A stretch of DNA of 64,000 bases from Thelephora terrestris (lineage: Eukaryota; Basidiomycota; Agaricomycetes; Thelephorales; Thelephoraceae), in NCBI GenBank assembly GCA_015956445.1, contig WIUZ02000011.1, forward strand, positions 372,001-436,000, in the 5' to 3' direction. Under the pieces are notes generated by a model that saw nothing but the letters and a program-made list of their open reading frames with translations, searched no databases and was not told the DNA's origin. The translations under genes were made by a program, and so were the position numbers. Below are positions 32,245-64,000 of the stretch, piece after piece. Numbering within the stretch: the stretch's first letter is position 1; the number at the start of each line of letters is the position of its first letter.

Positions 32245-33286
32245 TGACACTGGGGGCAAGGGGGTACTTACCCAGTGGATACATTGTGAGTTCATTGTGG
32301 GTTTTGAAACCATTTGCCCAGTCGTTACCCACCAGGTACTTTTTGGGTACTTTTCAAAATATACCCATCAATTCACCCGGATTTTACCCACTGGGTACAT
32401 GGTGGGTACTTTGTAAAAGTACCCACTCAGGAACCCAGTGGGTATTTTTTGAGCGAAACCTCTGGGTTCTTTCACAATTTACTTTCCAATATGCCCATCA
32501 CAAACCTGAGCCACTCATTGAGAGTTCTTTCATAAAGTGCCCACTGATCTGATCACAATGTACTCAACCAGATACTCAATGGGTTCTTTGAGAGTTTTTG
32601 GTAAAATTGAGCCACACTGTTAGTTCTTTGTGAGTTCTTTGAAAAAAACCCACTAGGTACATTTTGATCAGATCAGTGGGTATTTTGTGAAAGAACTCTC
32701 AATGAGTGGCTCAGGTTTGTGATGGGCATATTGGAAAGTAAATTGTGAAAGAACCCAGGGGTTTCGCTCAAAAAATACCCACTGGGTTCCTGAGTGGGTA
32801 CTTTTACAAAGTACCCACCATGTGTGATGATTTCGCCGTTTACCCTCTTTAATTCCCTTTATTTAACGCCTCATCACCACTAAGTCAGTTGGTGCCCTGC
32901 CCTAAACACGGCGGTAAACTGTTTATTATGCAGTATGCTCTATGCTTAACGACTCAAAGTCCAATACGTGGAACGTGCTACTAGTCAAGATACCCCAGAA
33001 GACCCGAGGTATAATACGTGAACATGTACCGGCGGACCTTCATACGAAGATCCCCCCTACCTGGCCCTCCGTTGCCCCTGAATGACTAATAGATATTCAG
33101 GCTACCGACAACAAGGGATGTATTAATAAGTGTCGCGCGCTGACCTCTCGCAGAAGTCAACCGGCTTATTAATCTGACCCTTGGATTGGACTTATGAAAA
33201 CCATTATGTTTAACGACTCATGGATCACGCACAATAGACAAAATAGAAAGAAGATTAATTGGAAGCCGACAGTACAAAAGAGTTAT

Positions 33287-34988: not shown

Positions 34989-35402
34989 CTCAGAGTAGTT
35001 TAGCCTGTACTCCTTAGATTTGTTATCATCAGACTCTCCGTGACCTCTACCGCTGTGTGCTTAGAGCAAGAGTGCCTGAAGACCCTTGTCTCCTTCTTTC
35101 TCCTCTTCTCCAATCTAGTCTGTGAAGAGACTTCCGATATCCCTGGGTTTGCAAAAGGGTTATAACTGTGTGTTTGACCCTTGAGTGCGATAGGTTTGGA
35201 TAGCAAGAGTGCTATTGAACTGTAGAGGTCGCGTCGGCCTGACACCATGTACCCAATGGGTAAAATCCGGGCGAATTGATGGGTATCTCTCAAAAAGTGC
35301 CCAAAAAGTACCTGGTGGGTAATGACTGGGCAAATGGTTTCAAAACCCACAATGAACTCACAATGTACCCACTGGGTAAGTACCCCCTTGCCCCCAGTGT
35401 GA

Positions 35403-44790: not shown

Positions 44791-45258
44791 GTGGGTGTGA
44801 TGATTTCGCCGTTTACCCTCTTTCATTTCCTTTATTTAACGCCTCATCACCACTAAGTCAGTTGGTGCCCTGCCCTAAACACGGCGGTAAACTGTTTATT
44901 ATGCAGTATGCCCTATGCTTAACGACTCAAAGTCCAATACGTGGAACGTGCTACTAGTCAAGATACCCCAGAAGACCCGAGGTATAATACGTGAACATGT
45001 ACCGGCGGACCTTCATACGAAGATCCCCCCTACCTGGCCCTCCGTTGCCCCTGGACGACTAGTAGATATTCAGGCTACCGACAACAAGGGATGTATTAAT
45101 AAGCGTCGCGCGCTGACCTCTCGCAGAAGTCAACCGGCTTATTAATCTGACCCTTGGATTGGACTTATGAAAACCATATGCTTTACGACTCATGGATCAC
45201 ACGCAATAGACAAAATAGAAAGAAAATTAATTGGAAGCCGATAGTACAAAAGAGTTAT

Positions 45259-46520
45259 TTAATCAATATCTCTTCGAATCCTTTGTACTACTTCCAACGC
45301 CGATCTCACCAACTCCTCGTTCAACCAGTTCTGCTCCCGGATCTTGTTCGGGTCCACGTCCGACAAGTCATCATAATCTGGAAGCTCCGTATCAGAGTTT
45401 GGTTCACTATCAGGAACGAACTCGGCGTACGGATCATACTCCAGAGCAGGCCATTGACGGCGACTACCCCAAGGAGTAGATACGAATCCAGGACAAGGAG
45501 TGTCCCTACGGACAACTCCTATGTTCTGGTAAAACTCGTCGCTCCCGATCTCGATAACCTCATCATCAACGGGAACCAACCTGTTCTCGTGACGAACCAA
45601 CAAACGAGCGGGTGGCGACTCAGCCCGGTTAGGGATGATTGGCGACCCGGCCCGATGCAGAACCTCCTCTCCCTCCTCTTCTTCAATTCGGACCTCCGGC
45701 TCGTTGCACCTCCTCTGGAGATCCCGGACTTCTCCGGTCAACTCGGAGACACGACGAGTAAGGCGAACCTAAAGGAATAGGGTTAGAAGATACAAAAACC
45801 TTCAACCCCTACCCCTTACCTTATCGTCCTCCAACTCTCCGGTTTTGGTAACCAGAGCCCGGACCAAGTCCTTGAGAGTGGTCACCTCTCCCTAAAGGAA
45901 ATGTTGGGTTAGAAAAGTCAATTATCTCCCGACCCCACATTTACCTTTAGCAAATCAATATCGGCCCCCTGCCGAACAACGCTATCTTCCTGTCCGTGAA
46001 TCACACCCTGCATATCCTCCTTCCAGTTTTCCAAGGCTTCTATCTCCTCGCGACAACCATCAATGCGCTCGTTGACATGAGCCACTTCGTCCATCAACAT
46101 AGACCCAACGTTCCCCGTATGGAGAACGCTGGCCTCCAACACGGAGTTGAAGGTCTCGTTGGACTCCGTCACGAACTCGACACCCCTATTGAGGAGTTCG
46201 CTCGCATATGGGTTAGTCTCTATGCGCGCCAACTTGCGCCGAGACACCCTACGAGCAGCTTGGAGAAAGTCCCTGAAACCTAAAAGGAGTTAGCTTGGTT
46301 TCCTAAATCGGAATTCGCAAGCAGGGCCCCCACCTAAATCAGAGAACCCCTCATTAGGGTCGGCGGTGGCGGTCCGGTCCATAACTGCTCCCAAGGTGGG
46401 ATAAGGACGGGACGGATCCCGACGGGCATGGGAGAAGCGGTCGATATTGTAGTTGTTCTCCTGAACAGGAGAGTAAGAAGAAGAGCGACGGGTGGGATTG
46501 CGAGTAGAAGCACGAGGCAT
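45259..46520 (-). CDS. Z2 antisense gene: coiled-coil protein, copy of the Z1 gene
   Basis: Same four-exon structure as in Z1 (first exon 46520-46334) with the open frame kept from MPRASTRNPTRR to the acidic C-terminus 'ALEVVQRIRRDID'. Differences from Z1 are scattered substitutions, for example IEEEEGEEVLHRAG versus VEEEEGEEVLYRAG, and no stops. The TATA box corresponding to 34610 is kept about 60 bases upstream. X lies 415 bases upstream of its start, so the gene itself is untouched. Confidence 0.68.
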
Positions 46521-47383
46521 GTTGTGAGTGTAACAAAGGAGGATTTGTTGGAAGACCAGTCATCCAACCCCCTTTGGTTATATACCAAATGCCACGCCCT
46601 TTCCACGACTCAGGAGTTGAGTCATCATTTCTATTGTTTACTGCGCATGACCCACATGACATCATATGCCCCTATCTTTAGTCATATGCTCCCCTTCTGC
46701 CATTGGCTGTTAGTCAGCCATACCCACATTCCTTCCGAACATTCTCAGGATATGTCATGCTTTGAAATTGCTCTGTAATGCTCTCAAATTGCTATTGGCC
46801 GCCACACTTTCGTTTATCAGCTGATAATTTGTAGCATTAGTCACCACGTAACGCACAGACCATGCAGTGCTGTGCACGGACCATGTTTGTCTGTGTTTAT
46901 ATCCATAGTGTAGTTACATGTAACGGTCACATCACTGTCAGGGCCACTCTACCCCAACAACTACCAGTTCACTGAGCCGACTCCGCAGAGTACTCACTAG
47001 TCCAACTAGCTTGTGAGAGAACGATCACGTCTCTATTCTTCCGGTAGGTTGTCCGAGGTCACTGCAAGTCAGGTCGAGATCCTAAAGAGAAACCCAACCT
47101 AAACCGTACTTCGTTCGGTTTAACAAACAAGGGTTGATCCCTACAACAGGATTGATGACTCCACCAGTTGATCGACTGGACGCTCGAGGTGTTCTAATAT
47201 GACTGCTGAGAGTCTATAGTTACGAGGCGCAGTTGACGCGCAGAGCGGGAGGGAGAGCAGATGGGGGATGTCTTGGATCAAACAAGAAACTCTGACTTGG
47301 CCTTAACTGCAACTGGGCTGAGAAGGGCAGAGGATTTCCTGAGGTAACAAAACTAAGGTACTACGATACAGCCACAGTTGCTA

Positions 47384-47389
47384 CTTATA
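47384..47389 (-). promoter_or_regulatory. LTR-side TATA box of X
   Basis: TATAAG on the minus strand within 'ttagtataagtagcaactg', about 450 bases before the CCCTGACA end of the element. The same site in X' is at 53754-53759. Confidence 0.45.
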
Positions 47390-48240
47390 CTAAAGGAGTG
47401 GCCATGACGTCAATACCCTAATATACCCTTATCAAGTCCAAAACAAAGGGAGATAAGGAGTGTGAGAACGCTAAGTAAGGGAAGCGAACAAAGGTGACGC
47501 GTGGGAGAATAAAGGACAAAGGGCCTTACTAGCGTGTGAAGGATTGCATAAAAGATAACGAATGTCCGCATGAAACATAGGGGTAAAGATAACACTAGTC
47601 CAAATGGAAATAGGAGCATGGGGTCGTGAAAGTTCGTACCTGGGGATCTCACCCAAGGGCCAGGTGTCAATCTCCCTTTACATGGCCTCTGCCAGCTGGA
47701 TTCGGGAGTAGAGACATTCAACATCCCTTGTTGTCTGTAGGCGGTAACAGCATCACGGACAAGTGGCAACCTCAACGTACGTCCGAACATGAGGAGGTCG
47801 GGCCTAGACTCATGGGACATGAGGGATTACAGATTCGCCGGCGTTTCACGCTAACGGCTACTCCACATGCGCTGGGCTAACCAGAAGAATCCTAGGGCGA
47901 TGCTTCCGAATAGCGGCGAGTCCTTCCTCCGGTTAGGAGACTGTGATGTGACTGTCCACGTGTGTGATCAGGGTCCAGGGTTGATCGTAATCGTAAAGTC
48001 ATGAGGGGTCGTAAAAGGGGTTCGTGATGTCATAAAGGGGTCATCAGGGTCTTGAGACCTATTTTTAGTGCGCGCGCGTTCTAGGCGTTCCGGAACGAAG
48101 TTCTTCCAAGGCCGTCCCGCGGGCCGAGGTGTCAGCTTGATGTAGTAAGCCAACGATGATGGTACAGGGGCGGAAGTTGATGTGACCCGGACCAATGAGG
48201 TTCGTCGAGGTAGGTCACGTGAAGGATCACCGATCTAGGC

Positions 48241-48246
48241 TATAAG
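48241..48246 (+). promoter_or_regulatory. TATA box of the X antisense gene
   Basis: TATAAG within 'ggctataagaagg', 73 bases upstream of the ATG at 48314; conserved in X' (52905-52900). Confidence 0.5.
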
Positions 48247-48313
48247 AAGGACGTCTTCTTGGAGCCATCCTTGATCAGCAACACCAGCAACTTCCCCATC
48301 ATCTTACCAAAAC

Positions 48314-49917
48314 ATGTCCTTCCCCAACAACCATACCTACAAAGTCGCCAATGGTATCTCCACCATCTCTCGCATCGATCGTCGTGCCGCCGCCCGCAAG
48401 TCCTACGCTTGTGCAGCTGGGACTCCCTATACCACGGATGACCAGGTTTGGGGGAGACCTAGAGCTTTATGTGCTAGCACTAACGCCTTCCTCTAGGTAG
48501 AGGTTACGTTCTTTTGGGCGTTGATGTCCAGCTAACGGCTTCTAGATCTTGGAGGTCGTCACGGAGGTGGACGCCGAACGTTTCAGGGAGACGATGCCTC
48601 ATTTGATGGGGTTGACCTGGGACGATGAGCTCTGGGTCCGTACGATCATTGCCGAGAAGGTGGCCTTCCAAATGAGGGGTAGGTTCGGGGAGCTGGAGCA
48701 TCCGATCAAGAAGGAGCTCTGGTATACCCTGCAAAGGGGAATCTATGATCAGGACCTATTGGAGCACGGAGCAACCGTTCCTCGGGCCGTCTGCCATGCC
48801 ACTGCCGCCACCTCGTTATTGTGGTCGCTCGTTCGGGAGGGGGAGAGCAAGGTAGGTTCTCCGTTTGAATAGTCGAGTATGACTCTCAACTAATCAAACT
48901 GCCTAGGTTGAACGTTTGGAGCGTGAGGTGAAGGAGGCGAAGGCAGACGTCCTTCGTTTGTCGGCGGAGGGTCTTCAGATGAAGGAGACCTTGGCCGCCT
49001 TCCAGCAGGGGACGAACGAGGCGTTGGAGGCAATGGTCGCCAACCATCAGGAGTTGATCGCAGGGTTGAAGGTTAGGGACAACAACATTAAAGGAGCGTT
49101 GGCCAGGAGGGATGAAAAGGTAATGCCTCTTTCATCATTGCTTCAAATGATGAAAGCTGACATTTCCTAGACCGAAGAACTCGAGAACGTGGTGGCTGTG
49201 TTGACAGCGCAGGTCGAGTCCTTGCAGGACAAGACCTGCAACTGCAAGGAGGGTCCCAAATTGGTTGGTCAGGGGACAGCCGATGTTCCGTTCGAGTTGG
49301 AGTACGCCGACGAGGTGGTACTGCCATCGCCTAACCCGTCGTCCTATGCGACGCCTCCGATCGAGAACACGGTTCCCGTTCCGACACCAGGTCCGGCTTC
49401 CACCTTGGCCGCTTCCGACAAGGAGAATTGTGGGCGTTGCGCCTTGCAGCCGATCCATCAGTTGGTGAAGATCGAGGACGAGGTCATGGAGGTTGACCGA
49501 GCTGAAGATGCTCCGAGGGTCGCCGAGGTACGTCCGGTGACTAAGGGGCAACGTTGCAAACACTCTCGACGCCGTCCTGCTCATCGCATGGCTCCATCGG
49601 CTAATCCCTATCCTCGACCAGTTGAGTCGGATGGTGACCAGTCTGGTCGAGGTGGAGGACGAGAGTTCCGCTATCGGTTCAACCGTCCCTTCCGACAGGT
49701 CGAGTCGGAGATCCAGCTTCGCCACCAGCGTCGACTCGCAATCCAGGATCCCGCCCAGGGGTCCGACGAGGGAGATGGAGGGTCGCTTGCCGACTACGTC
49801 GACAGTGCTGTCGAGCAATCACCCGGTGATGGAGATGTGGGACCAGGTGTTCAGCAGTTCGGTGACATCTGGGAGGCTGATCGGTCCGCTCGAAGGCATC
49901 TCTTCCTATCGGCTTGA
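48314..49917 (+). CDS. X antisense gene: coiled-coil protein of unknown function
   Basis: Exons 48314-48445, 48546-48851, 48907-49119 and 49171-49917 give 465 residues. Start MSFPNNHTYKVANGIS, then a helical domain ('MPHLMGLTWDDELWVRTIIA' to 'LVREGES'), then a coiled coil ('VERLEREVKEAKADVLRL' to 'TEELENVVAVLTAQVESLQDK') ending in the cysteine-bearing 'KTCNCKEG', then a Pro/Ser and acidic tail. The last part is uncertain: a third frame over 49622-50053 is also open and conserved in X', and could be reached by an intron starting at a GTACGT near 49528. No enzymatic motif is visible. The organisation (N-terminal domain, coiled coil, acidic tail, four exons, antisense to the LTR) parallels the Z gene though I see no sequence similarity. 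Confidence 0.65.
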
Positions 49918-50522
49918 ACTAGTCGTTCAGCTGAGTGCCGAAGATGGTGACGCCATGTTCGGGGAGGTTCTTGCGAGGAGGGGCCAGCACTACGATCTCC
50001 GGGATGGACAGTTGATGACCTTCAGGCCTGCCGTAGATAGAGTCGACTTTTGATGGGATTAGGATAGCACTTGTATAGCTTGTTGTGGCTTCGCTGGGAA
50101 TAGTACGCGCGTGTGTGTGTTTTGAATGATTGGTGTGAAGGATAAGGAGAGTGAAGCATTCAAACATAAGAAGTGGTAAGAAGAGTTCGAAGAAAGAGCG
50201 TGTTATAAAAAGTTTAAAAATACCATGTTCCTGACAATCACAAATCTAAGTAGTATATATACTCAGAGTAGTTTAGCCTGTACTCCTTAGATTTGTTATC
50301 ATCAGACTCTCCGTGACCTCTACTGCTGTGTGCTTAGAGCAAGAGTGCCTGAAGACCCTTGTCTCCTTCTTTCTCCTCTTCTCTTATCTAGTCTGTGAAG
50401 AGACTTCCGATATCCCTGGGTTTGCAACAGGGTTATAACTGTGTGTTTGACCCCTGAGTGTGATAGGTTTGGATAGCAAGAGTGCTATTGAAGTGTAGAG
50501 GTCGCGTCGGCCTGACAGTGGG

Positions 50523-50906
50523 TGCCTCAAGTACTGAGGCGCCTTGTTTGAGAAACTTGTCATGTGAGCGCATCGGGAGGTTCGCCGGGTCAACGGACCC
50601 CTCGGGTCGGTACAGCGGGACGTAGTGGATGTTCCCACCCTCGATGCGTATTCCAAGGATCTCACAAAATCGGCAAGGGTGGAGTGCATTGTGGCCCTTC
50701 ATCCGTGTCAGCTTTGCAATCCCTGGGTAATCGCCAAACCCCAGGATCAGGTAGACGTGTAGCCAGAACAACTCCTCTTCCCACGGATCCAGCGTTGCAA
50801 CTCCTTTTGCAAGTTCCTCGAGTTCGTCGTGGAGGGGGACCAGGTAAGAGTCCAGGTTTTTTACGGTGCCTGGGATAATACCGTAACAGAGAATGCGGTC
50901 ACGATG
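50523..50906 (-). pseudogene. CACTA transposase (TNP2), middle part b
   Basis: Minus strand, between Z2 and X'. Reads 'YLVPLHDELEELAKGV', 'LFWLHVYLILGFGDYPGIAKLTRMKGHNALHPCRFCEI' and 'YVPLYRPEGSVDPANLPMRSHDKF', the DDE-region landmarks of TNP2 (GD and 'MKGHNA..PCR.C'). It joins the piece at 54485-54213 across X' and the piece at 44790-42866 across Z2. Confidence 0.82.
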
Positions 50907-51229
50907 GGTGCTGTCAGGAACATGGTATTTTTAAACTTTTTATAACACACTCTTTCTTCGAACTCTTCTTACCTATTCTTATGTTTTAAATGCTTCACAC
51001 TCCTTATCCTTCACACCGATCATTCGAAAACACACACGCGCGTACTATTCCCAGCGAATCCACAACGAGCTATACAAGTGCTATCCAATCCCATCAAAAG
51101 TCGACTCTATCTACGGCAGGCCTGAAGGTCACCAAACGTCCATCTCGGAGATCGTAGTGCTGGCCCCTCCTCGCTAGGACCTCCCCGAACATGGCGTCAC
51201 CATCTTCGGCACTCAGCTGAACGACTAGT

Positions 51230-52832
51230 TCAAGCCGATAGGAAGAGATACCTTCGAGCGGACCGATCAGCCTCCCAGATGTCACCGAACTCTGGAACAC
51301 CTGGTCCCACATCGCCATCACCGGGTGACTGCTCGACAGCACTATCGACGTAGTCGGCAAGCGACCCTCCGTCTCCCTCGTCAGACCCCTGGGTAGGATC
51401 CTGGATTGCGAGTCGACGCTGGTGGCGAAGCTGGATCTCCGACTCGACCTGTCGGTAGGGACGGTTGATCCGATAGCGGAACTTTCGTCCCCCATCTCGA
51501 CCAGACTGGTCACCATCTGACTCAACTGGACGCGGGTATGGGTAAGCCGATGGAGCCATGCGATGAGCAGGACGGCGTCGAGAGCGCTTGCAACGTTGCC
51601 CCTTAGTCACCGGACGTACCTCGGCGACCCTCGGAGCATCTTCGGCTCGGTCAACCTCTATGACCTCATCTTCGATCTTCACCAACTGATGGATCGGCTG
51701 CAAGACACAGCGCCCACAGTTCTCCTTGTCGGAAGCGGCCAGAGTGGAAGCCGGAGCCGGAGTCGGAACGGGAACCGAGTTCTCGATCGGAGGCGTCGCG
51801 TAGGACGACGGGTTAGGCGATGGGAGTACCACCTCGTCGGCGTACTCCAACTCGAACGGAACATCGGCAGTCCCCTGACCAACCAATTTGGGACCCTCCT
51901 TGCAGTTGCAGGTCTTGTCCTGCAAGGACTCAACCTGCGCTGTCAACACAGCCACCACGTTCTCGAGTTCTTCGGTCTAGGAAATGTCAGCTTCCATCAT
52001 TTTAAGCAATGATGAAAGCAGCATTACCTTTTCATCCCTCCTGGCCAACGCTCCCTTAATGTTGTTGTCCCTAACCTTCAACCCGGCGATCAACTCTTGA
52101 TGGTTGGCAACCATCGCCTCCAACGCTTCGTTCGTCCCCTGCTGGAAGGCAGCCAAGGTCTCCTTCAATTGAAGACCCTCTGCTGATAGACGAAGGACGT
52201 CTGCCTTCGCTTCCTTTACCTCCCGCTCCAACCGTTCAACCTAGGCAGTCTGGTTAGTCGAGAGTCATACTCGAATATTCAGACAGAAAACCTACCCGGC
52301 TTTCTCCTTCTCGAACGAGCGACCACAAGAGACTAGTGGAAGCGGTAGCATGACGGATGGCCCGAGGAACGGTCGCTCTGTGCTCCAACAGATCCTGATC
52401 GTAGATTCCCCTCTGCAGGGTGTACCAGAGCTCCTTTTTGATCGGATGCTCCAGCTCCCCAAACCTACCCCGCATTCGGAAGGCCACCTTCTCGGCAATG
52501 ATCGTACGGACCCAGAGCTCGTCGTCCCAGGTCAACCCCATCAAATGAGGCATCGTTTCCCTGAGACGTTCGGCGTCCACTTCCGTCACGACCTCCAAGA
52601 TCTAGAAGCCGTTAGTCTGACATCAAACACCAAAAGAACGTTCCTCTACCTAGAGGAAGACGTTAGTGCAAATACACAAAGCTCTAGGTCTCCCCCATAC
52701 CTGGTCATCCGTGGCATAGGGAGTCCCAGCCGCACAGGCATAGGACTTGCGAGCGGCGGCACGACGGTCAATGCGAGAGATGGTAGAGATACCATTGGCG
52801 ACTTTGTAGGTATGGTTGTTGGGGAAGGACAT
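51230..52832 (-). CDS. X' antisense gene: coiled-coil protein, copy of the X gene
   Basis: Exons 52832-52701, 52601-52296, 52240-52028 and 51976-51230, same lengths and phases as in X. No stop or frameshift. Scattered replacements concentrate in the last 150 residues. The alternative C-terminal frame (51525-51094, ending 'FRPAVDRVDF') is open here too, so either could be the true end. Promoter: TATAAG at 52905-52900. Confidence 0.65.
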
Positions 52833-53753
52833 GTTTTGGTAAGATGATGGGGAAGTTGCTGGTGTTGCTGATCAAGGATGGCTCCAAGAAGACGTCCTTC
52901 TTATAGCCTAGATCGGTGATCCTTCACGTGACCTACCTCGACGAACCTCATTGGTCCGGGTCACATCAACTTCCGCCCCTGTACCATCATCGTTGGCTTA
53001 CTACATCAAGCTGACACCTCGGCCCGCGGGACGGCCTTGGAAGAACTTCGTTCCGGAACGCCTAGAACGCGCGCGCACTAAAAATAGGTCTCAAGACCCT
53101 GATGACCCCTTTATGACATCACGAACCCCTTTTACGACCCCTCATGACTTTACGATTACGATCAACCCTGGACCCTGATCACACACGTGGACAGTCACAT
53201 CACAGTCTCCTAACCGGAGGAAGGAATCACCGTTATTCGGAAGGGGTGCCTTAGACTCCTTTTGTTTAGCCCAGTGAATGTGGAGTAGCCGTTAGCGTGA
53301 AACGCCGGCGAATCTGTAATCCCTCATGTCCCATGAGTCTAGGCCCGACCTCCTCATGTTCGGACGTACGTTGAGGTTGCCACTAGTCCGTGATGCTGTT
53401 ACCGCCTACAGACAACAAGGGATGTTGCATGGCTCTACTCCCGAATCCGCTGGCATAGCTATGTAAAGGGAGATTGCTACCTGGCCCTTGGGTGTGATCC
53501 CCAGGTACGAACTTTCATGACCCCATGCCCCTTTTTCTTTTAGGACTAGTGTTATCTTTACCCCTATGTTTCATGCGGACATTCGTTATCTTTTATGCAA
53601 TCCTTCACACGCTAGTAAGGCCCTTTGTCCTTTATTCTCCCACGTGTCACCTTGTTCGCTTCCCTTACTTAGCGTTCTCACACTCCTTATCTCCCTTTGT
53701 TCTGGACTTGATAAGGGTATATTAGGGTATTGACGTCATGGCCACTCCTTTAG

Positions 53754-53759
53754 TATAAG
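53754..53759 (+). promoter_or_regulatory. LTR-side TATA box of X'
   Basis: TATAAG directed to the right, preceded by a CRE-like 'TGACGTCA' at 53731-53738, about 450 bases from the end CCCTGACA. The TGACGTCA site is a palindrome recognised by bZIP activators in fungi and is also present in X on the other strand. Confidence 0.45.
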
Positions 53760-54212
53760 TAGCAACTGTGGCTGTATCGTAGTACCTTAGTTTTGTTACC
53801 TCAGGAAATCCTCTGCCCTTCTCAGCCCAGTTGCAGTTAAGGCCAAGTCAGAGTTTCTTGTTTGATCCAAGACATCCCCCATCTGCTCTCCCTCCCGCTC
53901 TGCGCGTCAACTGCGCCTCGTAACTATAGACTCTCCGCAGTCATATTAGAACACCTCGAGCGTCCAGTCGATCAACTGGTGGAGTCATCAATCCTGTTGT
54001 AGGGATCAACCCTTGTTTGTTAAACCGAACGAAGTACGGTTTAGGTTGGGTTTCTCTTTAGGATTTCGATCTGACTTGCAGTGACCTCGGACAACCTACC
54101 GGAAGAATAGAGACGTGATCGTTCTCTCACAAGCTAGTTGGACTAGTGAGTACTCTGCGGAGTCGGCTCAGTGAACTGGTAGTTGTTGGGGTAGAGTGGC
54201 CCTGACAGGTGC

Positions 54213-56516: not shown

Positions 56517-57460
56517 CAAAATCCCATGACCCATGGGCCATACGTCGCCGTACGACAGGTACAAATCCCCATGACCCATGGACCGTACGATGGTGTGTGG
56601 GCCCCATGACCCATGGGTTGTACGGTGCTGTATGATAGTATGGCCTGTCCATGACCCATGGGTTGTACGATGCCGTACGGTGGTATGCCCTTCCCATGAC
56701 CCATGGGCCGTACGGTGGTGCTGGACTGCCATCCACCCTGCCCATGACCCATGGGGCGTACAGCACCGTACGGTGGTATGCCCTGCCCATGACCCATGGA
56801 GCGTACGGCGCCGTACGGTGGTATGCCCTGCCCATGACCCATGGGTCGTACGGCGCCGTACGGGGGTTTGCCCTACCCATGACCCATGGAGCGTACGGCG
56901 CCGTACGACAGTATGCCCTGCCCATGACCCATGGAGCGTACGGCGCCGTACGGTGGTATGCCCTACCCATGACCCATGGAGCGTACGGCGCCGTACGACA
57001 GTATGCCCTACCCATGACCCATGGAGCGTACGGCGCCGTACGACAGTATGCCCTGCCCATGACCCATGGAGCGTACGGCGCCGTACGACAGTATGCCCTG
57101 CCCATGACCCATGGGTCGTACGGCGCCGTACGACAGTATGCCCTGCCCATGACCCATGGAGCGTACGGCGCCGTACGACAGTATGCCCTGCCCATGACCC
57201 ATGGGTCGTACGGCGCCGTACGGTGGTATGCCCTGCCCATGACCCATGGAGCGTACGGCGCCGTACGGTGGTATGCCCTGCCCATGACCCATGGAGCGTA
57301 CGGCGCCGTACGGGGGTATGCCCTACCCATGACCCATGGATCGTACGGCGCCGTACGACAGTATGCCCTGCCCATGACCCATGGAGCGTACGGCGCCGTA
57401 CGGTGGTATGCCCTGCCCATGACCCATGGAGCGTACGGCGCCGTACGCACAGGGTTCAGC
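56498..57460. repeat. 45-bp minisatellite array, left arm
   Basis: About 21 units of the type cccatgacccatggagcgta + cggcgccgtacgacagtatgccctg. Each unit has a perfect 16-bp palindrome CGTACGGCGCCGTACG and a near-palindrome CCATGACCCATGG. The first five or six units (to about 56740) are diverged, the rest almost uniform. Because 45 is a multiple of three, open frames of 15-residue repeats appear on both strands; they are not genes. Confidence 0.9.
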
Positions 57461-57527
57461 TATCTTTTCTCCATGGGTCATGGACCATACATCGTGACAA
57501 TTCTCCATGGGTCATGGGCCATGCAAC

Positions 57528-57549
57528 GTTGTACAACGCGTTGTACAAC
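57528..57549. repeat. 22-bp perfect palindrome at array junction
   Basis: GTTGTACAACGCGTTGTACAAC, two GTTGTACAAC palindromes joined by GC, sits between the 45-bp and 35-bp arrays. The mirror copy is near 62999-63020 in the right arm. Confidence 0.85.
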
Positions 57550-57599
57550 CCATGACCCATGGAGAAAAGATACCATTGTACAACCCATGACCCATGGGT

Positions 57600-59560
57600 A
57601 ATGGAATAGTATCCGTTGCCCATGCCCCATGGGTTGTACAATGGTATCTGTTGCCCATGCCCCATGGGTTGTACAACACTATCCCTTGCCCATGCCTCAT
57701 GGGTTGTACAATGCTATCCTTTCCCCATGGGGCATGGGTTGTACAACGCTATCCAATTCCCATGCCCCATGGGTTGTACAACGCTATCTGTTCCCCATGG
57801 GTCATGGGTTGTACAACGCTATCCTTTCTCCATGGGGCATGGGTTGTACAACACTATCCATTTTCCATGCCCCATGGGTTGTACAACACTATCCATTTCC
57901 CATGGGGCATGGGTTGTACAACGCTATCCAATTCCCATGCCCCATGGGTTGTACAACACTATCTGTTCCCCATGGGTCATGGGTTGTACAACGCTATCCA
58001 TTCTCCATGGGGCATGGGTTGTACAACGCTATCCAATTCCCATGCCCCATGGGTTGTACAATGCTATCTGTTCCCCATGGGTCATGGGTTGTACAACACT
58101 ATCCGTTCCCCATGGGTCATGGGTTGTACAACACTATCCTTTCTCCATGGGGCATGGGTTGTACAACGCTATCCTTTCTCCATGGGGCATGGGTTGTACA
58201 ACGCTATCCATTCTCCATGGGGCATGGGTTGTACAACGCTATCCATTCTCCATGGGGCATGGGTTGTACAACACTATCCATTTCCCATGGGTCATGGGTT
58301 GTACAACACTATCCAATTCCCATGCCCCATGGGTTGTACAACGCTATCCGTTCCCCATGGGTCATGGGTTGTACAACACTATCCTTTCTCCATGGGGCAT
58401 GGGTTGTACAACACTATCCATTTTCCATGCCCCATGGGTTGTACAACACTATCCATTTCCCATGGGGCATGGGTTGTACAATGCTATCCAATTCCCATGC
58501 CCCATGGGTTGTACAACGCTATCCATTCTCCATGGGGCATGGGTTGTACAACGCTATCCTTTCTCCATGGGGCATGGGTTGTACAACGCTATCCATTTCC
58601 CATGGGTCATGGGTTGTACAACGCTATCCATTTCCCATGCCCCATGGGTTGTACAACGCTATCTGTTCCCCATGGGGCATGGATTGTACAACGCTATCCG
58701 TTCCCCATGGGTCATGGGTTGTACAACGCTATCCGTTCCCCATGGGTCATGGGTTGTACAACGCTATCTGTTCCCCATGGGGCATGGGTTGTACAACACC
58801 ATCCATTCTCCATGCCCCATGGGTTGTACAATGCTATCCTTTCTCCATGGGTCATGGGTTGTACAACACTATCCAATTTCCATGCCCCATGGGTTGTACA
58901 ACGCTATCCATTTCCCATGCCCCATGGGTTGTACAACACTATCCATTCCCCATGGGGCATGGGTTGTACAACACTATCCATTTCCCATGGGTCATGGGTT
59001 GTACAACACTATCCATTTCCCATGCCCCATGGGTTGTACAACACTATCCGTTTCCCATGGGGCATGGGTTGTACAACACTACCCATTCTCCATGCCCCAT
59101 GGGTTGTACAACACTATCTGTTCCCCATGGGTCATGGGTTGTACAACACTATCCAATTCCCATGCCCCATGGGTTGTACAACGCTATCCATTCCCCATGG
59201 GGCATGGGTTGTACAACGCTATCCATTTCCCATGCCCCATGGGTTGTACAACACTATCCTTTCCCCATGGGGCATGGGTTGTACAACACTACCCATTCTC
59301 CATGCCCCATGGGTTGTACAACACTATCTGATTCCCATGCCCCATGGGTTGTACAACACTATCCATTCTCCATGGTGCATGGGTTGTACAACACTATCTA
59401 TTTTCCATGCCCCATGGGTTGTACAATGCTATCCAATTCCCATGCCCCATGGGTTGTACATCACTATCCAATTCCCATGCACCATGGGTTGTACAACAGC
59501 ATCTTGTGCCCATGGGGCATCAGTTGCAGAATGGTGTCCTTTCTCCATGTCCCATGGATT
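57600..59560. repeat. 35-bp minisatellite array, left arm
   Basis: About 56 units of ttgtacaacgctatccattc + tccatggggcatggg. Every unit has the 10-bp palindrome GTTGTACAAC and one of two near-palindromes, CCATGGGGCATGG (or CCATGCCCCATGG) and CCATGGGTCATGG. Variants at fixed positions (ac/gc before tatc; ca/ct/cg after) alternate irregularly. As 35 is not a multiple of three, three units encode one 35-residue period and all three frames of the strand read the same peptides and stay open for over 570 codons. Confidence 0.92.
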
Positions 59561-60137
59561 ATATCACTATTCCAGGAAAGGAGATACTTTATAAATCAAC
59601 CATTAGCTGTGTGAATTTGAAAAAATTAGACTCTGTTTGTATGCATGATAGACCATATATCAGTGTGTGGCTCTAACCTAATGGAAACTAAACTTAACCT
59701 GATAATAGCCACAACCTAATCCTCAATCTAACCTGAGCCAATGTAAACTTGACCCATGAACCTAAGCCTAACCTAATCCTAAACCTGGTCTAATCCCAAA
59801 TCTAACCCTAACCTGACCTGACCTAACCTAACCTAACCTAACCTAACCTAACCTAACCTAACCTATACCTAACCTAACCTGGTATGGGCAAACCTAACCT
59901 ACCTATCATGACCTGTTTCAGCCTAATGTCATGTATGCCAGCCAAGACTAACTTCACCCAGTTGCAAACATATGACTTGGGTCACAGGACCATAAAGCAA
60001 ACTGCAGTCCCCTCACTCTGTGCCCAACCATCCCATAAGCCCACAGACGCACATATATATCATCAGCAACCCAGCATCATGCTTATCACCCATGTTCAAC
60101 CACAAACCACTCTCACCCTTTGTTCTGTGCTATCTCA
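59561..60137 (+). repeat. Single-copy inner segment, left arm, with (CCTAA)n
   Basis: Contains many dispersed CCTAA pentamers, perfect between about 59818 and 59862. Next to it a 105-codon open frame (59884-60198) is also present in the right arm (60529 downwards) with the same beginning, MGKPNLPIMTCFSLMSCMPA; they are the same DNA in inverse orientation and I see no evidence that it is a gene. Confidence 0.75.
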
Positions 60138-60273
60138 AAGCCTAACCATAACTCTAGCTCACCCACCCATATTAATCCTTGTGTGGAATATGTTATAAGT
60201 CTATAAACCATATGTTTGTAGGCCACTTGCTTGTGGGCCCAAGGAGGTGGATGAACTTGAGTTGTGGTTTGTC

Positions 60274-60860
60274 TGTGAGATGGCACAGAACAAAGGGTGA
60301 GAGTGGTTTGTGGTTGAACATGGGTGATAAGCATGATGCTGGGTTGCTGATGATATATATGTGCATCTGTGGGCTTATGGGATGGTTGGGCACAGAGTGA
60401 GGGGACTGCAGTTTGCTTTATGGTCCTGTGACCCAAGTCATATGTTTGCAACTGGGTGAAGTTAGTCTTGGCTGGCATACATGACATTAGGCTGAAACAG
60501 GTCATGATAGGTAGGTTAGGTTTGCCCATACCAGGTTAGGTTAGGTATAGGTTAGGTTAGGTTAGGTTAGGTTAGGTTAGGTTAGGTTAGGTTAGGTTAG
60601 GTTAGGTTAGGTTAGGTTAGGTCAGGTCAGGTTAGGGTTAGATTTGGGATTAGACCAGGTTTAGGATTAGGTTAGGCTTAGGTTCATGGGTCAAGTTTAC
60701 ATTGGCTCAGGTTAGATTGAGGATTAGGTTGTGGCTATTATCAGGTTGAGTTTAGTTTCCATTAGGTTAGAGCCACAAACTGATATATGGTCTATCATGC
60801 ATACAAACAGAGTCTAATTTTTTCAAATTCACACAGCTAATGGTTGATTTATAAAGTATC
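60274..60860 (-). repeat. Single-copy inner segment, right arm, with (TTAGG)n
   Basis: Inverse copy of 59561-60137. The TTAGG run (about 60552-60620) is longer than its mirror by a few units. A pentamer is the telomere unit of many insects; fungal telomeres are normally TTAGGG, so this is an interstitial satellite rather than a telomere. Confidence 0.75.
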
Positions 60861-60889
60861 TCCTTTCCTGGAATAGTGATATAATCCAT

Positions 60890-62960
60890 GGGACATGGAG
60901 AAAGGACACCATTCTGCAACTGATGCCCCATGGGCACAAGATGCTGTTGTACAACCCATAGTGCATGGGAATTGGATAGTGATGTACAACCCATGGGGCA
61001 TGGGAATTGGATAGCATTGTACAACCCATGGGGCATGGAAAATAGATAGTGTTGTACAACCCATGCACCATGGAGAATGGATAGTGTTGTACAACCCATG
61101 GGGCATGGGAATCAGATAGTGTTGTACAACCCATGGGGCATGGAGAATGGGTAGTGTTGTACAACCCATGCCCCATGGGGAAAGGATAGTGTTGTACAAC
61201 CCATGGGGCATGGGAAATGGATAGCGTTGTACAACCCATGGGGCATGGGAATTGGATAGTGTTGTACAACCCATGCCCCATGGGGAATGGATAGCGTTGT
61301 ACAACCCATGGGGCATGGGAATTGGATAGCGTTGTACAACCCATGACCCATGGAGAAAGGATAGCGTTGTACAACCCATGACCCATGGGGAACAGATAGC
61401 GTTGTACAACCCATGACCCATGGGGAACGGATAGCGTTGTACAACCCATGGGGCATGGGAAATGGATAGCGTTGTACAACCCATGACCCATGGGAAATGG
61501 ATAGTGTTGTACAACCCATGCCCCATGGGGAATGGATAGCGTTGTACAACCCATGGGGCATGGGAAATGGATAGCGTTGTACAACCCATGGGGCATGGGA
61601 AATGGATAGCGTTGTACAACCCATGACCCATGGGAAATGGATAGCGTTGTACAACCCATGCCCCATGGAGAATGGATAGCGTTGTACAACCCATGACCCA
61701 TGGGGAACAGATAGCGTTGTACAACCCATGGGGCATGGGAAATGGATAGTGTTGTACAACCCATGCCCCATGGGGAATGGATAGCGTTGTACAACCCATG
61801 GGGCATGGGAAATGGATAGTGTTGTACAACCCATGCCCCATGGGGAATGGATAGCGTTGTACAACCCATGGGGCATGGGAATTGGATAGTGTTGTACAAC
61901 CCATGACCCATGGGGAACAGATAGTGTTGTACAACCCATGGGGCATGGAGAATGGGTAGTGTTGTACAACCCATGCCCCATGGGAAACGGATAGTGTTGT
62001 ACAACCCATGCCCCATGGAGAAAGGATAGCGTTGTACAACCCATGACCCATGGGGAACTGATAGTGTTGTACAACCCATGACCCATGGGGAACGGATAGC
62101 ATTGTACAACCCATGAGGCATGGGGAACGGATAGCGTTGTACAATCCATGCCCCATGGGGAACGGATAGTGTTGTACAACCCATGGGGCATGGGAAATGG
62201 ATAGTGTTGTACAACCCATGACCCATGGGAAATGGATAGCGTTGTACAACCCATGCCCCATGGGGAGCAGATAGTGTTGTACAACCCATGCCCCATGGAG
62301 AAAGGATAGTGTTGTACAACCCATGACCCATGGGGAACAGATAGCGTTGTACAACCCATGACCCATGGGGAACGGATAGCGTTGTACAACCCATGGGGCA
62401 TGGGAAATGGATAGCGTTGTACAACCCATGACCCATGGGAAATGGATAGTGTTGTACAACCCATGCCCCATGGGGAATGGATAGCGTTGTACAACCCATG
62501 GGGCATGGGAATTGGATAGTGTTGTACAACCCATGGGCCATGAGAATCGGATAGCGTTGTACAACCCATGCCCCATGGAGAACGGATAGCGTTGTACAAC
62601 CCATGACCCATGGGGAACAGATAGCGTTGTACAACCCATGGGGCATGGGAATTGGATAGCGTTGTACAACCCATGGGGCATGGGAAATGGATAGCGTTGT
62701 ACAACCCATGACCCATGGGAAATGGATAGCGTTGTACAACCCATGCCCCATGGAGAAAGGATAGCGTTGTACAACCCATGACCCATGGGGAACAGATAGC
62801 GTTGTACAACCCATGGGGCATGGAAATTGGATAGCGTTGTACAACCCATGCCCCATGGGGAAAGGATAGCATTGTACAACCCATGAGGCATGGGGAAGGG
62901 ATAGTGTTGTACAACCCATGGGGCATGGGCAACGTATACTATTCCATTACCCATGGGTCA
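60890..62960. repeat. 35-bp minisatellite array, right arm
   Basis: Inverse of the left 35-bp array, about 59 units; the order of variant units is similar near the inner end but not identical throughout, which shows independent gains and losses of units since the arms formed. Confidence 0.9.
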
Positions 62961-63085
62961 TGGGTTGTACAATGGTATCTTTTCTCCATGGGTCATGGGT
63001 TGTACAACGCGTTGTACAACGTTGCATGGCCCATGACCCATGGAGAATTGTCACGATGTATGGTCCATGACCCATGGAGAAAAGA

Positions 63086-64000
63086 TAGCTGAAGGGGCTC
63101 CCGTACGACAGTATGCCCTGCCCATGACCCATGGAGCGTACGGCGCCGTACGACAGTATGCCCTGCCCATGACCCATGGGTCGTACGGCGCCGTACGGTG
63201 GTATGCCCTGCCCATGACCCATGGAGCGTACGGCGCCGTACGGTGGTATGCCCTGCCCATGACCCATGGAGCGTACGGCGCCGTACGGGGGTATGCCCTA
63301 CCCATGACCCATGGATCGTACGGCGCCGTACGACAGTATGCCCTGCCCATGACCCATGGAGCGTACGGCGCCGTACGGTGGTATGCCCTGCCCATGACCC
63401 ATGGAGCGTACGGCGCCATACGACAGTATGCCCTGCCCATGACCCATGGAGCGTACGGCGCCGTACGGTGGTATGCCCTGCCCATGACCCATGGAGCGTA
63501 CGGCGCCGTACGGTGGTATGCCCTGCCCATGACCCATGGAGCGTACGGCGCCGTACGGGGGTATGCCCTACCCATGACCCATGGATCGTACGGCGCCGTA
63601 CGACAGTATGCCCTGCCCATGACCCATGGAGCGTACGGCGCCGTACGACAGTATGCCCTGCCCATGACCCATGGAGCGTACGGCGCCATACGACAGTATG
63701 CCCTGCCCATGACCCATGGAGCGTACGGCGCCGTACGACAGTATGCCCTGCCCATGACCCATGGAGCGTACGGCGCCGTACGACAGTATGCCCTGCCCAT
63801 GACCCATGGGTCGTACGGCGCCGTACGGTGGTATGCCCTGCCCATGACCCATGGAGCGTACGGCGCCGTACGGTGGTATGCCCTGCCCATGACCCATGGA
63901 GCGTACGGCGCCGTACGGGGGTATGCCCTACCCATGACCCATGGATCGTACGGCGCCGTACGACAGTATGCCCTGCCCATGACCCATGGAGCGTACGGCG
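63086..64000. repeat. 45-bp minisatellite array, right arm (cut by window end)
   Basis: At least 20 units of the same 45-bp repeat as on the left, now starting directly after 'agctgaaggggctcc'. Two units have a mutated palindrome (CGTACGGCGCCATACG near 63403-63418 and 63677-63692). It continues beyond the window. Confidence 0.9.

Follow-up and report, generated by a model that had tools for sequence, protein, structure and literature searches.

A 64,000-nucleotide (nt) stretch of the Thelephora terrestris genome (contig WIUZ02000011.1, forward-strand positions 372,001 to 436,000; hereafter the window) contains two inverted copies of a ∼3.3-kb repeat, X and X', each carrying an intron-containing gene for a coiled-coil protein, together with copies of a second repeat family, Z. 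The original prediction had described two such copies with 5-bp target-site duplications (TSDs) and the shared ends TGTCAGG/CCTGACA, and the coordinates confirmed this; 178 differences over 3295 aligned bases separate X from X'. To judge from sequence comparisons within the genome, both are solo long terminal repeats (LTRs) of a recently active Ty3/gypsy chromovirus of T. terrestris, located as follows.

46936-50236 (3301 bp), minus strand (the element sense strand): X, solo LTR of the chromovirus; TSD ATCAC at 46931-46935 and 50237-50241
50912-54207 (3296 bp), plus strand (sense = plus): X', second solo LTR, inverted; TSD GGTGC on both sides

The genome that contains the window (40.6 Mb, 60 contigs) was searched with X, and at least 48 matches were obtained with 40 of 637 candidates scored. 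When two mismatches at most were allowed, a 23-base pattern from the LTR's gene-upstream end occurred at 411 sites, and the reversed pattern used as a control at none; these sites mark LTR ends rather than proven whole copies. An alignment of 38 copies was built from 34 near-complete matches (X included), three copies interrupted by a variant segment, and X', with other partial matches excluded. Eight of the aligned copies form the same-strand LTR pairs of four full-length elements (C1, C4, C11, and C12) with matching outer TSDs. The remaining 30 comprise 27 solo LTRs with a perfect 5-bp TSD and three copies without a matching TSD (L026, L038, and L039); of the latter, L038 and L039 (G000:C23:671349 and 677291) are inverted copies with swapped flanking 5-mers (CTTTC, AGGAC), as expected if recombination inverted the intervening segment.

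These full-length elements elsewhere in the genome bore out the assignment of X as an LTR. The LTRs within each pair differ at only 2/3301, 0/3299, 1/3307, and 1/3324 positions, and the frames between them lie on the strand opposite to the X gene: 484 and 1272 amino acids (aa) in three elements, and 1364 aa plus a shorter frame of 253 aa in the fourth. In the one element scanned against Pfam, the first frame contained a zinc knuckle and the second contained, in order, RVP_2, RVT_1, RT_RNaseH, Integrase_H2C2, rve, SH3_Tf2-1, and Chromo (E 1.5e-16), which is the protease, reverse transcriptase, RNase H, and integrase order with a C-terminal chromodomain that defines Ty3/gypsy chromoviruses. Direct TG..CA LTRs with ∼5-bp TSDs were found in all four pairs and, as single LTRs, in 27 of 30 cases, and the genome holds eight pols 98-100% identical to that of the element, one of them with an internal stop. 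The near-identical LTR pairs, the gag-pol frames, and the near-identical pols therefore indicate a recently active chromovirus to which the X gene is antisense, as had been predicted. In the element to which L009 belongs, pol stops 20 nt short of the 3' LTR, and the antisense gene, at LTR sense positions 184-1923, is wholly within the LTR. The 7-bp inverted repeat formed by TGTCAGG/CCTGACA and the lack of any internal region in the window would also fit a DNA transposon that has short inverted termini and duplicates 5 bp of its target, but this reading can be given practically no weight, being contradicted by the four direct X pairs around gag-pol with matching outer TSDs and by a primer site and a purine-rich stretch that adjoin the LTRs in the full-length elements.

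The gene was predicted to have four exons, and its ATG and three GT..AG introns are present in all 38 copies; an optional fourth intron and a fifth exon had been missed. In the list below, counts refer to the 38 aligned copies, and dN/dS is the ratio of nonsynonymous to synonymous divergence.

48314..48445, plus strand: exon 1 of the X antisense gene, 44 codons, dN/dS 0.053; ATG and splice sites in 38/38
48446..48545, plus strand: intron 1, splice sites in 38/38
48546..48851, plus strand: exon 2, 102 codons, dN/dS 0.057
48907..49119, plus strand: exon 3, 71 codons, coiled coil, dN/dS 0.015
49171..49917, plus strand: exon 4 with intron 4 retained (isoform 1), 465 aa, stop at 49915-49917; intact in 35/38
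49528..49621, plus strand: optional intron 4, 94 nt, GTACGT...AG in 38/38; also codes in frame A (dN/dS 0.08)
49622..50053, plus strand: exon 5 in the +1 frame (B), used if intron 4 is spliced (isoform 2), 479 aa; overlaps frame A to 49917; intact in 37/38
51094..52832, minus strand: X' antisense gene, exons 52832-52701, 52601-52296, 52240-52028, and 51976-51620; optional intron 51619-51526; exon 5 51525-51094

The three breaks in the 465-codon frame are stops at codon 458 in L017 and codon 350 in L026, and a one-base deletion in exon 2 of L034. Exons 1, 3, and 4 contain no gap columns and exon 2 contains one, versus 130 across 47400-48233. The predicted coiled coil was located in exon 3, where it is modeled with confidence. 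Intron 1 of X' (52602-52700; X: 48446-48545) reads as two abutting GT..AG introns of 51 and 48 nt with no exon between them, and several NCBI models retain a few extra residues at this double site.

Constraint was measured in 33 copies, taking only the first LTR of each pair and leaving out L034 for its frameshift. Over the X gene, dS was 0.230 and dN 0.0198, giving a dN/dS of 0.086 (0.168 in exon 4; the other exons as listed), whereas the other frames over the same bases gave 0.172-4.37, and no opposite-strand frame was open across the gene in any of the 38 copies. Similarly low values were obtained for exons 1-4 of a further family, Y (0.048; 13 copies), which has a homologous antisense gene at the same LTR position and a pol 63% identical to that of X, and for Z (0.044). 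A ratio near 1 would have marked the frame as incidental; at these values, the gene is, by its substitution pattern, protein-coding and constrained. Passages of PMC7264820 describe antisense transcripts from LTR elements as sometimes non-coding or as feeding into RNA silencing. Together with the antisense TATA block, which ranks with the best-conserved parts of the LTR here, this would suit an element in which only the antisense RNA matters, through silencing or anti-silencing by double-stranded RNA. It is nevertheless very improbable that the open frame is incidental to such an RNA, as exon dN/dS of 0.015-0.17 with dS of 0.15-0.41 means that the protein and not the RNA sequence is conserved, and X and Y keep the protein (34% identity) with little DNA similarity. 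Coding constraint contradicts the antisense RNA as a full account, though the RNA may have an additional role.

The distribution of variants bears on the level at which selection acts. In a 336-codon core without stops, singleton variants comprised 61 nonsynonymous and 101 synonymous changes (N/S 0.60), variants in two or three copies 14 and 73, and variants in at least four copies 17 and 116 (N/S 0.15-0.19 for shared variants), against a neutral expectation of 2.36 derived from the noncoding spectrum. Constraint is therefore strongest on inherited changes that have passed through replication, a pattern that favors selection at the level of the element. If the gene were instead a passenger or a captured host gene under host selection, and the solo LTRs were dispersed host genes that the element had only spread, constraint would also be expected among singletons, as observed (0.60 versus 2.36); 30 of 38 aligned copies are single LTRs, 35 of 38 keep the frame, and the NCBI annotation lists the copies under hypothetical proteins, in 74 X/Y and 71 Z clusters. 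Host ownership appears improbable, however, given the stronger constraint on shared variants and the Y homologue, whose equivalent place in an LTR next to a pol with 63% identity suggests that gene and element were inherited together; no gene copy was noticed outside LTRs, though no separate search was made.

Two C-termini are possible through the optional intron, as far as the splice sites and frames indicate. Diversity by codon position shows the constrained frame shifting downstream from A to B, several NCBI gene models splice from a GTACGT donor at 49528 to an acceptor at 49621 (P0001 retains the intron), both splice sites are invariant in all 38 copies, and 49861-50050 has a dN/dS of 0.21-0.23 in frame B. 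The retained segment encodes a basic stretch and the motif RPAHRM.PS in both X and Y; in X the motif lies within the intron, and in Y it spans the acceptor. The optional intron of Y is 64 nt, with its splice sites in 13/13 copies, the spliced form intact in 13/13, and the retained form in 12/13. Low diversity and intermediate ratios in both frames of the Y overlap (0.42-0.80 and 0.51-0.67) are suggestive of, and compatible with, dual coding, but fall short of proof because the third, unused frame has the lowest ratio (0.36) in the last 120 bases.

The two TATA boxes of the LTR and the predicted self-primer motif are placed as follows.

48241..48246, plus strand: antisense TATA box (TATAAG), ∼70 nt before the ATG; CTATAAGAAGG in 38/38
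47384..47389, minus strand: sense TATA box of X (CTTATA on the plus strand), intact in 37/38; X' equivalent at 53754-53759
47344..47355, minus strand: self-primer motif, sense TAGTTTTGTTAC, 34 nt after the start of the sense TATA box; X' at 53788-53799; in 37/38

The TATA box expected ∼450 bases before the CCTGACA end was recovered as the TATAAG of the sense promoter. A single bidirectional promoter had also been proposed; instead, two divergent TATA boxes ∼850 bp apart each occupy their own conserved block (47236-47435 and 48036-48335), where diversity is 0.004-0.015 per 100 bases, compared with up to 0.133 between the blocks. In X, the site following the LTR is complementary to 12 LTR bases (LTR 2877) starting 34 nt after the TATA box, as computed for three of the four elements, the fourth having identical bases; in the one Y element analyzed, the primer site is complementary to a different 11 LTR bases (LTR 2490), 35 nt after the TATA box. 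Matches of at least 12 occurred in 1 of 400 shuffled X LTRs, and of at least 11 in 3 of 400 shuffled Y LTRs. In both families, the primer site is thus complementary to the predicted RNA start within the same LTR, which is what self-priming, known for Tf1, predicts.

Taken together, with a probability of roughly 60%, X and X' are solo chromovirus LTRs whose antisense gene, borne in the U3 region, encodes a protein accessory to the element, most likely a nuclear regulator of coiled-coil type. The LTR identity, antisense position, divergent TATA boxes, coding constraint, optional intron, and Y homologue on which this builds are all read from the DNA itself. The enlarged U3 of the 3.3-kb LTR would carry a complete intron-containing gene with its own TATA box, opposite to gag-pol, and the protein would belong to the element rather than being a host gene or passenger. 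It may adjust sense-strand transcription of the element or the chromatin at the element's copies, in the manner of HBZ of human T-cell leukemia virus type 1 (HTLV-1), and retention of intron 4 would give it a basic, localization-like segment; packaging, targeting, and silencing control had been put forward earlier as candidate roles. An intron-bearing gene would survive passage through the genomic RNA only in antisense orientation, because its splice sites are unread in that RNA. Placement in U3 would let the gene be copied into both LTRs in each cycle and kept in solo LTRs, which could then supply the protein in trans.

Several observations weigh against this reading. Singletons are constrained too, so element- and host-level selection are separated by degree only, and no homologues were found outside T. 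terrestris in a search that needs shared 5-residue words, which weakens the case for a long-kept accessory gene. The structure model is confident for the coiled coil only (mean predicted local distance difference test score 48.5), no Pfam family reached its cut-off in the four proteins scanned, and the basic segment as a localization signal is our own reading of the sequence. Frame B is unconstrained at 49622-49740 (dN/dS 2.03; frame A 0.29) and weakly constrained at 49741-49860 (0.71; frame A 0.33), and exon 5 in this frame has an N/S of 0.80 for singletons and 0.40-0.60 for shared variants. The spliced isoform is less certain than the retained one because of this lack or weakness of constraint after the acceptor, and for the same reason programmed ribosomal frameshifting near 49830-49860, where the constrained frame turns from A to B at a distance from the intron acceptor, stays as a rival source of the +1-frame C-terminus. 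Frameshifting is nonetheless unlikely, as all 38 copies keep the GTACGT donor and the AG acceptor unchanged, an optional intron of matching kind is present in 13/13 copies of family Y, and most NCBI models examined splice at intron 4.

A search for related proteins in other Agaricomycetes had been proposed, and conservation there was not supported. A profile search with the X/Y protein, in which the 7999 candidates sharing most words were scored, gave 75 matches, of which 74 were from T. terrestris and the last had 6% query coverage on a 3989-bp contig; all 71 Z matches were from T. terrestris. Among the 120 of 1645 pol matches listed, the eight best were 69-74% identical and on contigs of 4.4-9.0 kb.

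A plan shared among several families had been proposed as a general strategy. It holds for X, Y, and Z, although within one genome, and the separate cases are two (X/Y and Z) because X and Y share the gene by descent, with a family W as a possible third. X and Z are unrelated, as predicted: hhalign gave a probability of 0.3%, and blastn of the LTRs found one common 20-base match only. This 20-mer (19/20 bases) surrounds GACAACAAGGGATG at 47721-47740 and 33102-33121, in the same sense orientation. Z is a putative LTR by its ends, TSD, and promoter; no full-length partner was found for its 222 ends. Repeat family W (L067:76-2156; G000:C1, ∼195415-197495) had at least 60 matches with 40 of 398 candidates scored, and has on its minus strand a 245-aa open reading frame (ORF) that includes a coiled-coil-like stretch, and on its plus strand a TATA-like ATATAAGG and an ORF of 207 aa. 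Neither the ends nor the TSD of W could be placed, and it is a candidate LTR family.

The X and Z families are nested at this locus.

44796..50517, plus strand: Z', Z-family copy interrupted by X; TSD GTGGG

X is inserted ∼17 bases upstream of the Z' TATATA (50237-50260). Elsewhere, X and Z copies have apparently inserted into their own kind to give abutting inverted pieces (G000:C58:1761357-1767176, C45:1247707-1252557, and C16:612055-616899). The copy designated Z is flanked by 158-bp inverted repeats (32247-32404 and 35243-35400; 94% identical), possibly the ends of another transposable element hosting the Z insertion. The window also contains, within 56523-64000, a near-palindrome with arms at 57584-59865 and 60578-62859 (2282 nt, 91% complementary) that consist of 35-bp tandem repeats, flanked on both sides by another repeat array with steps of ∼45 bp.

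Among known systems, the closest are the aORF-3R antisense ORFs, among them maize Grande gene23, rice RIRE2, Retand (TRP28-domain ORFs), and Boty brtn of Botrytis cinerea, which passages of PMC7264820 and PMC11963269 place in the internal region between pol and the 3' LTR; brtn is also named in PMC8365987. As far as these passages go, X resembles them in being antisense to gag-pol, in the retention of the gene by most family copies, and in a possible nuclear or DNA-binding role, and the Grande gene likewise has its own promoter. The X gene differs in lying wholly within U3, so that there are two per element and one per solo LTR, and in having three spliceosomal introns plus an optional one, where the aORF-3R descriptions covered mention none. 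X is accordingly a variant of the antisense-ORF elements rather than a member, because its gene is inside the LTR and not between pol and the 3' LTR. The Tf1/sushi-type chromoviruses of fungi resemble X in having an integrase with a chromodomain and a primer site suited to priming by the 5' end of the element's own RNA, but have short LTRs that are not known to carry an antisense gene, unlike the 3.3-kb LTR of X. The sag gene of mouse mammary tumor virus lies, like the X gene, within U3, but in sense orientation and in an animal retrovirus. HBZ, which has spliced and unspliced isoforms, resembles the X gene in being antisense, with a promoter in the LTR and a coiled-coil type of protein, but lies mostly in the internal region and is a bZIP protein, whereas the bZIP_1 match of X, in one of the four proteins, was far below cut-off (E 0.52). 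HBZ is named in a passage of PMC11963269, and an HTLV antisense promoter inside the 3' LTR in one of PMC7264820.

Although LTR elements with antisense genes have been described, a gene contained entirely within the LTR, with introns and two possible isoforms, is unreported in the literature passages covered, and searches of an open-access collection found no report of such a gene inside U3. A broader proposal, tentative and well short of even odds, is that LTR elements of fungi have on more than one occasion taken into U3 an antisense control gene with introns and alternative splicing, making the LTR a mobile gene; each solo LTR might remain an expressing unit that acts in trans, Z-like families may spread as LTR-plus-gene units mobilized by relatives, and antisense orientation would be a solution to introns in an RNA genome. 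The layout would explain how introns survive in an element copied through RNA. It also means that solo LTRs carry a gene and are not inert, and that in this fungus no fewer than 145 clusters annotated as hypothetical proteins (74 X/Y, 71 Z) are relatives of transposon-borne genes.

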